Shown one piece after another: positions 35,105-39,392 of a stretch of DNA of 63,983 nt. Each line of letters starts with the position of its first letter. The first letter of the stretch is position 1. Position numbers and translations under genes: made by a program. Under the pieces are notes generated by a model that was not told the origin of the DNA, did not search any database, and worked only from the letters and a program-made list of their open reading frames with translations. The stretch comes from Candidatus Bathyarchaeota archaeon (GTDB lineage Archaea; Thermoproteota; Bathyarchaeia; Bathyarchaeales; Bathycorpusculaceae), in the NCBI GenBank assembly GCA_018396875.1, contig JAGTQG010000003.1:4012-67994 (forward strand), written 5' to 3'.

Positions 35105-36934
35105 TTGTGTGGAATATTCGGCTGCATTATTAAAGATGGAAACGCTGCGCCAATAATACATCAAGCTTTAAAAAGGTTGGAATACCGAGGCTACGACTCA
35201 GTTGGCGAGGCAACGGTACATGAAGGAAAACTTTACATAAAAAAGGACAGCGGCAAAATAGACGAAGTCCATAGAATCCACAACCTCGACGACTTGCCCG
35301 GAAACATTGGCATAGGCCATACAAGATGGGCAACTCACGGAGCCCCCCTACAAGTTAACGCACACCCGCATATGGATTGCACGGGTCAAATAGCAGTTGT
35401 TCATAATGGCATTATCGAAAATTTTGCCGAGTTAAAACTTGAACTGGAGAATAAAGGACACGTTTTCGTTTCAAAGACAGACACTGAAGTCATCGCCCAC
35501 CTAGTAGAGGACGCTTTAAAAAACAATCCGTTCCTGAGTCTCGCGGACGCTGTTCTCGACGCTGTGCGAAAAATTGAGGGCTCATACGCCATTGCGGTGA
35601 TCTCGCCAAAAGAGCCCGATAAAATTGTGTGCGCAAGAAACGAAAGCCCTCTTGTCCTAGGACTGGCAAACAATGCAATATACTGCGCTTCGGACATTCC
35701 AGCCTTTCTGCCATTAACTAACAAAACAGTTGTAATAGAGGACGGGGAGCTTGTAATTCTATCCCTAGAAGGCTTCGAGATAAAGAAAATCGCAGATGCA
35801 AGCCCCGTGATACGGGAACCAAAAATAGTGGACTGGACCCCTGAGATGGCTGTCAAACAGGGTTATCCCCACTTCATGTTAAAGGAGATTCACGAACAGC
35901 CAGCTTGCTTACGAAACACCCTACGTCTCCAAGAGCATTATCTAGATTTAATGGCGACATTTTTAGACCGAGCCAAAGAAGTTTTTCTCGTCGCTTGTGG
36001 AACATCTTACCATGCATGTTTAGCAGCTTCCTACATGTTTTCTAAACTCGCCTACTTGGCTACGTACCCGGTTATCGCGTCAGAATTCATAGAGCAACAT
36101 GGCAAATCCGTAAACATTGACAGCACAATTCTTGCAGTAAGCCAGTCCGGCGAAACCGCAGATACCATTGCAGCTGTAAACGCTGCACGCCAGAGGGCAG
36201 CCACAGTTTTAGGATTGACAAATGTTATTGGCTCAACATTAACGAGAATCTCACGGGTTTACATATGCCAGCAGTCCGGACCAGAAATAGGCGTTGCTGC
36301 CACAAAAACCTTCACGGCTCAACTTTTAGTTCTTGCACAACTAGCCCTCAGACTTGCCAAAAAGAGGGGAAAAATATCCCAAGATGAAATGGACTTTATA
36401 GAGGCTAAATTGAAAAAACTTCCAAGCATTGTCGAAACAGTAATAACAACTCAAGAGGAGAAAGTTAAAGCCATAGCGAAAAAATACAAAGACGCAAAGG
36501 TCTTCTTCTTTTTAGGGCGGGGAATCAGCACCGCCACCGCCTACGAAGGCAGACTTAAGCTCATGGAAATAGCTTACGTTCCTTCAATAGCATTTCCAGC
36601 GGGCGAAAGCAAACACGGTCCAATAAGCTTAGTGGAAGAAGGCTTCCCGGTGGTTTTCATATGCCCTAGGGATGATACTCGCAAAACCATTATAGGAAAC
36701 ATCATGGAAATGAAAGCGCGAGGAGCCTCCATAATAGCCATAATAGAGGAAGGAGACGAGGAGATAAAACGCCTTGCCGACGACCATATAGAAATCCCGA
36801 AGGGTGTTCCAGATGTTCTATCGCCCATACCATTCGTCGTTCCATTGCAGCTTCTGGCATACTACATGGCTGTGGAGAAAGGATACGACCCAGACAAGCC
36901 TAGAAACCTGGCAAAATCGGTGACTGTAAAATAA
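35105..36934 (+). CDS. glmS: Glutamine-fructose-6-phosphate aminotransferase (isomerising)
   Basis: First step of UDP-GlcNAc synthesis, needed for N-glycans. The TTG start gives Cys2 as the N-terminal nucleophile (CGIFG) after Met removal. The Ntn amidotransferase domain (about 1-225) has GHTRWATHG, and two SIS isomerase domains follow (about 290-420 and 460-590; GTSYHACLAA, SQSGETADT). The C-terminal lysine (SVTVK, usually -SVTVE) region is intact at residue 609. A GAGGCAAC sits just before the start. Confidence 0.96.
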   Translation: MCGIFGCIIKDGNAAPIIHQALKRLEYRGYDSVGEATVHEGKLYIKKDSGKIDEVHRIHNLDDLPGNIGIGHTRWATHGAPLQVNAHPHMDCTGQIAVVHNGIIENFAELKLELENKGHVFVSKTDTEVIAHLVEDALKNNPFLSLADAVLDAVRKIEGSYAIAVISPKEPDKIVCARNESPLVLGLANNAIYCASDIPAFLPLTNKTVVIEDGELVILSLEGFEIKKIADASPVIREPKIVDWTPEMAVKQGYPHFMLKEIHEQPACLRNTLRLQEHYLDLMATFLDRAKEVFLVACGTSYHACLAASYMFSKLAYLATYPVIASEFIEQHGKSVNIDSTILAVSQSGETADTIAAVNAARQRAATVLGLTNVIGSTLTRISRVYICQQSGPEIGVAATKTFTAQLLVLAQLALRLAKKRGKISQDEMDFIEAKLKKLPSIVETVITTQEEKVKAIAKKYKDAKVFFFLGRGISTATAYEGRLKLMEIAYVPSIAFPAGESKHGPISLVEEGFPVVFICPRDDTRKTIIGNIMEMKARGASIIAIIEEGDEEIKRLADDHIEIPKGVPDVLSPIPFVVPLQLLAYYMAVEKGYDPDKPRNLAKSVTVK

Positions 36935-36991
36935 AGTTTTCAAGCCTTAAGCTACAAATGTGTTTAAATCTCCTTTTAGCTAATACTTGGC

Positions 36992-37709
36992 TTGGTGTAT
37001 TATTTGGAGAGAGACTGGGAAAGACTTATTGAAAACTTGATAAGGGAAGGAGTTCTCCGCAGTCCAAGAGTAATTAAAGCTTTGCGCTCCGTGCCAAGAG
37101 CAAAATTCCTGCCGGAAAATATGCAACAATACAGCGCAGTAGATACACCCCTTCCAATTGGGTTTGGGCAGACGGTTTCAGCGCCACATAGCTTCAGCAA
37201 TATGCTGGGCTAGGCGAAACATGGTAGCCATCATGAATGAAGCCCTCCAATTGGAAGTGGGTCACAAAGTCCTTGAAGTTGGAGCCGGCTCGGGGTGGCA
37301 TGCCGCTACAATAGCGGAGATAGTGGCACCCAGCGACGCTCCCAGAAGCGAGTGGGGGCATGTATACACTGTGGAAATTATTGAAGGCTTAGCTGAGTTT
37401 GCCAGAAAAAATATAATGCGAGCAGGATACGGAGATCGTGTAACAATAATATGCGCTGACGGCTCCATGGGATATCCAGAAAAAGCACCATATGATAGAA
37501 TCTTAGTAACAGCTGCCGCGCCAGACATACCGCAACCATTAATTGAACAGCTAAAAACAGGAGGAATCATGCTTATTCCCGTCGGAAGTATACACTTCTT
37601 CCAAAACTTGATAAAAGTAACAAAAAATGTTGATGGAAAAATTAGAAAGGAAAATCTCGGCGGAGTAGCCTTTGTACCTTTAACCGGACGATATGGGCAC
37701 AAAATTTAG
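36992..37709 (+). CDS. pcm: Protein-L-isoaspartate O-methyltransferase, interrupted by putative intron
   Basis: SAM-dependent repair of isoaspartyl residues in aged proteins. The frame from GTG 36992 encodes the family N-terminus to FGQTVSAPH. A TAG then stops it at 37211. The frame resumes at the conserved MVAIMNEAL with the SAM motif LEVGAGSGWHAA and runs to 37709. Exactly 31 bases (37188-37218) separate the parts. Removing them gives 228 residues, a normal length, with SAPHMVA intact. The insert folds like a splicing motif (see the next entry). Promoter-like GTGTTTAAAT is at 36961-36970. Without splicing or bypass this would be a pseudogene. Confidence 0.85.
37182..37220 (+). other. Bulge-helix-bulge-like hairpin with 31-nt putative intron
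   Basis: CGCC (37182-37185) pairs with GGCG (37213-37216) as a 4-bp central helix. A 3-base bulge ACA (37186-37188) follows on the 5' side, then stem TAGC/GCTA (37189-37192 with 37209-37212), a small internal loop, stem CAGC/GCTG and a 5-base loop. A 3-base run AAA (37217-37219) forms the other bulge. Cuts after the second base of each bulge excise 37188-37218 and join CAC-ATG in frame. The outer helix is weak (only G37181-C37220), so this is a relaxed form of the motif. Confidence 0.7.
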
Positions 37710-37739
37710 GAAAATCTTCTAAACTTTTTGGATTATTGT

Positions 37740-39392
37740 CTAGTTTTTAATCAGCACACCAACAAGGGCTGCGACCGCTCCAAACTCTGTGAAAGCAATA
37801 GCAGAGAAAATGGCTAGTGTATGTAAGACGTTTGAAAAACCGATGATGAAACAGGCCAGCATGGGTGTTAAGCAAAGAATAATTCCAGGGATAAGCACCA
37901 TTATGAAAGTGGATAGATTGGTGTAAAGGCTGCTGGGCGCCAGCTTCACATTCCAAAACTTTCTTACAAGTAGGAGCAGTTCTATCATACAGCCAGCAGC
38001 CACAGAAACAGCTTGCATCATCCCAAAAGATGTGATGTGTACGAGCTCCCTCCTCAAGTACAAAAGTACAACTGTTAACACAATTACACAACCAACATAT
38101 GTTAAAGTTGACAAGAATGTCTTCGCCGCCACCACAGTTCTCCTTTTCAATGGTAAACTTCGCGTATAAGCTGAGGCCAATGTCTCAGCTGAAAACAACA
38201 TCGGAGTCACCATGAGCGCCAGAAGCGAAACTCCAGCCAAAAAGCCAAGAACAAATTCCGAGCTTATATTTGAAAGACTTAGAAGAGATAAAACACTAAT
38301 TACAGTTTGCAAAGCGGGCAACATTAAAATGCTTGCGTAGGAGGGTGATCTAGAGGCCACCCTCAGATCCTTAATAATGAGCCCAAGAAAAGCGGATCTA
38401 GGTCGGATAAAAAGGTCCTTAACAAAAGTTTTAGAGGCAACTATGATTCCACTTGAACCAATGCGTTTAATTGCCAACCCCAGATAGTTTAGCCCAAAAT
38501 ATCCTAAAATTGCGTGCAAAGTTGTGGAAAAAATCAAAACAACAGCGGTCACTGGGTTAATTTTATGGGGGAGAACTGCAAAAGCGACGGTGAAACCTAA
38601 CGAGAATGGGTATACCAAAGTAAGTGTAAAAGAGTAAGCAGCGGACAACTGCGCCAAAGAGTGAGCAAGAGCCTGCAAAATTTGTGTTGCAAAATTCATA
38701 ATTAGGTAAATCCCAAGAGAGGGGAAGACCCATATAAGCATGTAGATAAATCGCATAACAGTCTTATACTTCGAGCTTCCCCCTCCACCAACAATTTTTG
38801 AGTAAAAAAGTTTTGCTAAGCCAATGGTTAAAGCTAAAGCAAAAATTACTGTAAGAGTCACAACAAACAAAGCGGCTAAGCCTCCAAAAAACGAGTTCAC
38901 AACAACAGAAAACGCCACGGGAAAAACTATTAGGGAAGTTATCAACGGTATGTCAAAAATTCTTAAGAAGGATAGCAGCGCAATTTTGGAGACATCTTTT
39001 CGCGAAATTGGAAGGCTACTTAAAAATTCGAAGGCCTTCGTTGCCACAAGCGAAGTTACAGCCTGAAGCCCAAGCATTACTAGAAGGAAAAATAGGGACG
39101 CCATAAAAACCGAAACGCACCCAACAATGGCTAATTCCTCAGCCAGCTTTAACCCCCAAACAAAGTATGACCAGTAGCCCAGTGGCATAACTGCTAGAAA
39201 AGCCACAAAAATTGTTACAATAATCTTGCTAATCAACATATTCATTTCAGTCTGCCTTGCCATCTTACCAATTTTCTCGTTGTCCATTCGAGGGAGGGTT
39301 GCGCCTAAGCGGAGGGAGAAAAGTGATTGAAAGCATATCTCCCTATAAACTATGCTGGAGACTTTCCACAGCTCCAAAAATTTTTTCGTCAA
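37740..39392 (-). CDS. ABC-2-type exporter permease
   Basis: Large integral membrane protein of 550 residues with about 12 hydrophobic helices, arranged as two groups of six separated by a cytoplasmic linker around FVKDLFIRPRSAFLGLIIKDL (about 320-340). It begins at TTG immediately after the ATPase stop codon (TGA-TTG), so translation is coupled. An ATG at codon 36 is an alternative start. The substrate is unknown; antimicrobial or lipid export would be typical of the family. Confidence 0.8.
   Translation of the reverse strand: MTKKFLELWKVSSIVYREICFQSLFSLRLGATLPRMDNEKIGKMARQTEMNMLISKIIVTIFVAFLAVMPLGYWSYFVWGLKLAEELAIVGCVSVFMASLFFLLVMLGLQAVTSLVATKAFEFLSSLPISRKDVSKIALLSFLRIFDIPLITSLIVFPVAFSVVVNSFFGGLAALFVVTLTVIFALALTIGLAKLFYSKIVGGGGSSKYKTVMRFIYMLIWVFPSLGIYLIMNFATQILQALAHSLAQLSAAYSFTLTLVYPFSLGFTVAFAVLPHKINPVTAVVLIFSTTLHAILGYFGLNYLGLAIKRIGSSGIIVASKTFVKDLFIRPRSAFLGLIIKDLRVASRSPSYASILMLPALQTVISVLSLLSLSNISSEFVLGFLAGVSLLALMVTPMLFSAETLASAYTRSLPLKRRTVVAAKTFLSTLTYVGCVIVLTVVLLYLRRELVHITSFGMMQAVSVAAGCMIELLLLVRKFWNVKLAPSSLYTNLSTFIMVLIPGIILCLTPMLACFIIGFSNVLHTLAIFSAIAFTEFGAVAALVGVLIKN

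Follow-up and report, generated by a model that had tools for sequence, protein, structure and literature searches.

A 31-nt insert (positions 37188-37218) interrupts the pcm gene in the window, by which is meant the whole stretch of 63,983 nucleotides of Candidatus Bathyarchaeota archaeon DNA that was analysed, and comparison with related genomes makes it very probable that the insert is a pre-mRNA intron, excised by EndA and ligated by RtcB, probably ancestral and repeatedly lost. In the mechanism proposed, the pcm transcript would fold as a bulge-helix-bulge (BHB) in which CGCC, closing exon 1, pairs with GGCG, closing the intron, an EndA of the (alpha-beta)2 type would cut behind the second base of both 3-nt bulges, and RtcB would join the exons to give a single 228-residue protein-L-isoaspartate O-methyltransferase with the conserved APHMVAIM. 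We infer from sequence that cleavage and ligation of the transcript take place in the cell. Because an intron at the same codon is found in more than 110 related genomes, a second archaeal mRNA intron besides that of cbf5, and a very old one, almost certainly exists.

The interrupted pcm gene and the fold of its insert

The open reading frame listing shows the pcm frame of the window broken at SAPH|MVAIM, exactly where an earlier note on this DNA had placed the break, and all of the coordinates given there, including those of the in-frame TAG, were confirmed. The insert length is not a multiple of three; the exon-1 frame (36992-37213) closes at this TAG (37211-37213), and exon 2 lies in another frame, running from ATG 37221 to a stop at 37709. 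The features are as follows.

36992 to 37187, plus strand: pcm exon 1, 66 codons including the first base of the His codon (open reading frame; PF01135 positions 4-66); start codon TTG 36992 as listed, with GTG 36995 or TTG 37004 also possible
37182 to 37185, plus strand: central helix, 5' strand CGCC, exonic, its second base the wobble base of an Ala codon; pairs with 37213-37216
37186 to 37188, plus strand: 5' bulge ACA, predicted cut after 37187
37188 to 37218, plus strand: predicted BHB intron, 31 nt (frame break, fold, homologous inserts in 102 distinct variants, unique cut register)
37189 to 37212, plus strand: intron-internal hairpin TAGC..CAGC-AATAT-GCTG..GCTA; six varying pairs, every one with changes on both sides
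37213 to 37216, plus strand: central helix, 3' strand GGCG, intronic; pairs with 37182-37185
37217 to 37219, plus strand: 3' bulge AAA, predicted cut after 37218
37219 to 37709, plus strand: pcm exon 2, beginning with A and C of the His codon, then Met (PF01135 positions 61-208); stop TAG 37707-37709

Joining the exons gives the predicted junction GCGCCAC|ACATGGTA. The two pieces match the Pfam profile PF01135 separately, at 4-66 and 61-208, and the joined 228-residue enzyme that the note had anticipated matches it from 4 to 208 (E 1.2e-66). At the junction the joined product aligns gap-free with Pcm of Pyrococcus furiosus (1jg1), which has an identical and uninterrupted SAPHMVAIM.

The BHB-like fold described in the note was likewise reproduced exactly in its helices, bulges and 5-nt loop, which closes the stems TAGC/GCTA and CAGC/GCTG in the window. 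In the 38-nt core the BHB is the minimum free energy fold (z = -3.9), with none of 200 shuffles equally stable. It has the 4-bp central helix and the two opposed 3-nt bulges at the exon-intron boundaries by which archaeal BHB motifs are recognized, and in the crystal structure of Xue et al. 2006 the EndA cut reportedly falls after the second bulge base. The minimum free energy fold of the window insert in its 86-nt context is also a BHB, in which the outer exon-exon helix of the strict hBHBh' form is present but interrupted, so that the outer helix is less weak than had been claimed; since it is imperfect, cleavage may depend on an EndA of crenarchaeal type with its relaxed specificity. No credible Rfam match, including to the catalytic (group I/II) intron families, was found in 36800-37900.

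Coding register and covariation in related genes

Across 102 distinct pcm variants the intron varies from 20 to 48 nt and differs in sequence, with its shape kept. All three length phases are present (44/30/28), and each of the 30 introns whose length is a multiple of three contains a stop, so that read-through is impossible in any of the variants. Cuts after the second base of each 3-nt bulge restore Ala-Pro-His-Met in 102/102 variants, and sliding the register by one base leaves APHM in only 8 or 75 of them; as a coding register, the cuts at 37187/37188 and 37218/37219 that the note proposed are thus the only ones that serve throughout. The window by itself leaves the cut uncertain by one base, 37188 and 37219 both being A, and it is the 27 variants with a third 5'-bulge base other than A that resolve it to the canonical position. 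The 5' bulge is ACA in 70 variants, ACT in 16, TCT in nine, TCA in five and ACG in two, its middle C invariant; in the 3' bulge the first two bases vary and the third is A in all 102. The Pro codon is always CCA or CCT where the intron is present, and also CCC or CCG where it is absent (Fisher p 1e-4, uncorrected for kinship).

The paired positions covary. In a MAFFT alignment, which is not fitted to structure, 99.1% of the cells in the eight core pairs are paired and 31 are double-change cells (0/500 shuffles). A model-fitted alignment of 75 sequences, which is biased towards the structure, gave 97.2% of cells paired and 162 double-change cells against 43 +/- 11 after shuffling (0/500), and pairing on it fell to 26-42% when the partners were slid. 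The central helix is fully paired in 101/102 variants, L141 having one mismatch: it is CGCC/GGCG in 94, CACC/GGTG in seven and CGCC/GACG in one. The CACC/GGTG form ties a synonymous exon wobble base (Ala) to an intron base with no change to the protein, and this compensatory exon-intron change occurs on several separate branches of the tree.

These data bear on the ways in which the gene might be expressed, or fail to be, with its RNA uncut. In programmed ribosomal bypass, the ribosome would take off at the codon that follows Pro, hop over the hairpin and come down ahead of Met; a hairpin does lie here between two frames of one protein, and phage T4 gene 60 is arranged likewise. However, the in-frame codon next to Pro changes from species to species (CAT, CAC, CTC, CAG, CGC and CAA among others) and no landing codon matches it, the lengths span 20-48 nt in all phases, and conservation tracks BHB geometry, including the base pair by which a synonymous position of the exon is coupled to the intron, all of which makes bypass highly improbable. 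It is just as hard to credit that pcm is truly split or decayed, as two polypeptides with a hairpin between them or as a pseudogene: without splicing, exon 1 does end within the insert or beyond it, and exon 2 does open with ATG, but the protein sequence of each half is conserved (identity among named Bathyarchaeota is about 68-92% for exon 2), and the split His codon, which would have no meaning if the gene were divided, is C..AC in all 102 variants and is fused in relatives. An assembly or sequencing artefact, conceivable for a window drawn from a draft genome of 41 contigs, is already refuted to the point of near impossibility by the presence of homologous inserts that covary in over 100 genomes, each assembled independently. 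Bypass and pseudogene, which the note had kept as alternatives, and the assembly error that it named as a possible refutation are effectively removed by register, covariation and intronless fused relatives, and EndA-dependent splicing is the reading followed below.

Distribution and history of the pcm intron

A search of 257 genomes of the class Bathyarchaeia with a covariance model (R2) gave matches in 111 (best E 2e-20); only two genomes gave an additional match outside pcm, and these two matches (L119, L120; E 2e-4, 5e-4) lie in other genes and were judged to be chance. Outside the class, seven genomes had matches, six of them in pcm, and these six represent two other classes of the phylum (5/7 and 1/1 genomes). 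The seventh match, the weak L139 (G439:C1), lies outside pcm and is probably chance. At the same codon the loci show C[G/A]CC and a bulge of three bases, then the hairpin, then GG[C/T]G and a second three-base bulge ahead of C-ATG; independent assemblies have the insert too, among them contigs whose titles call them chromosome (CP070714, CP070826). Since the same insert with the same geometry recurs in over 110 other genomes, that of the window is far beyond chance.

The introns at the extremes of length are those of L146 and L147 (G071, G072; family f10), at 20 nt, very short for a protein-gene intron, in a family where 21-22 nt is usual, and those of L114, L121 and L115, at 46-48 nt, with a larger, G+C-rich hairpin.

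Alignment of related pcm genes, proposed in the note as a check, brought out both intron-bearing and intronless relatives. When Pfam and R2 results were compared for a set of 61 relatives, in many of which pcm is broken at the same PF01135 position (about 59-67), the intron was found in 46, an uninterrupted pcm in 11 and no pcm orthologue in four. The intronless relatives carry the exact fused sequence, with PH-M joined at the insertion point. The four genomes without an orthologue are G013, G038, G045 and G053, the first from genus g11, many members of which are also without a model match; loss of the gene may have followed or replaced intron loss in some genomes.

A tree of 115 Pcm proteins was rooted on Hyperthermus; outside Bathyarchaeia only intron-bearing genes were collected, through sampling by covariance model. 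Intronless genes are surrounded by intron-bearing ones, and the fewest intron changes on the tree number eight, three of them forced by well-supported branches. Probably, then, Bathyarchaeia and at least two other classes inherited the intron from a common ancestor, and it was probably lost later, precisely and several times, a direction short of proven because of this sampling outside Bathyarchaeia. The losses are precise to the single base, which is what copying of spliced RNA would lead one to expect; Yokobori et al. 2009 suggested such copying for loss of the cbf5 intron (PMC2738675).

Splicing machinery and comparison with known introns

The source genome encodes a catalytic EndA subunit (GPGLEHAPF motif, His and Lys conserved), whose K39-P40-K41 align with K44-P45-R46 of the crenarchaea-specific loop in Aeropyrum, the loop residues used for comparison being those of PMC12397907. 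It also encodes another protein of the EndA type, in which the catalytic His is missing, and the pair fits, by sequence, a broad-specificity (alpha-beta)2 enzyme of one catalytic and one structural subunit. An RtcB ligase is encoded as well (E 4e-180). A positive control for the pcm intron is supplied by cbf5 of the same genome (L217, G000:C39:6000-7300), in which a 31-nt BHB intron splits, at GTL-D-P, the catalytic GTLDP motif, the classic crenarchaeal intron position. Among 21 Bathyarchaeia cbf5 genes inspected, 17 (the source and 16/20 relatives) have a BHB intron of 18-33 nt: it is present in L217, L214, L215, L218-L222 and L225-L233, and absent from L212, L213, L223 and L224.

A scan of nearly the whole source genome for further frame-restoring BHB motifs recovered cbf5 and missed pcm, its other hits looking like gene junctions; having missed pcm itself, the scan is too insensitive to exclude more such introns. 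At L296:8404-8499, ARAGORN called a tRNA with an unreadable two-base anticodon, which may be an intron-containing tRNA. It is a tentative thought, and on balance a doubtful one, that EndA-dependent pre-mRNA splicing forms a regular layer of expression in Bathyarchaeia and neighbouring classes, with at least two old introns (pcm, cbf5) and perhaps more kept because splicing efficiency regulates enzymes; such regulation would follow from the unspliced pcm transcript giving no more than an inactive piece of some 70 residues.

Literature searches, with subscription papers and preprints outside their coverage, found no published pcm intron for the gene or the lineage. The pcm intron is old and widely conserved rather than an oddity of one genome. 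If spliced as predicted, it makes archaeal mRNA splicing older and broader than cbf5, being a second mRNA intron that more than 110 genomes carry in a group which is itself widespread, accounts for the broken-looking pcm of many Bathyarchaeia genomes, a warning for gene callers, and offers a natural series of intron losses, together with exon-intron covariation, for testing the co-evolution of EndA substrates and codons.

In Haloferax, EndA acts on the HVO_1309 mRNA, as proposed for pcm, although we know of no reading-frame restoration there, unlike that predicted for pcm. HVO_1309 was reported as a newly identified EndA cleavage substrate, and one mRNA was counted among known BHB carriers, in a 2020 paper (PMC7714728). 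Archaeal pre-tRNA and pre-rRNA introns have in common with the pcm intron a 4-bp central helix, two 3-nt bulges and, as predicted for pcm, cuts within them by the same enzymes, whereas the pcm intron lies in an mRNA, where the exon strand of the helix is constrained by its codons as well. The closest likeness is to the cbf5 pre-mRNA intron, reportedly described in Sulfolobales and Desulfurococcales by Watanabe 2002 and Yoshinari 2006. That intron (Yokobori 2009, PMC2738675), like the one in pcm, is a short BHB inside a conserved codon, frame-breaking and subject to lineage-specific losses; it is an EndA substrate, as the pcm intron is predicted to be. The pcm intron, its splicing being inferred, differs in gene, in codon, in its occurrence in Bathyarchaeia and two further classes, and in lengths down to 20 nt. 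The kind of intron is thus already known, and pcm adds to it a new gene and a new lineage.
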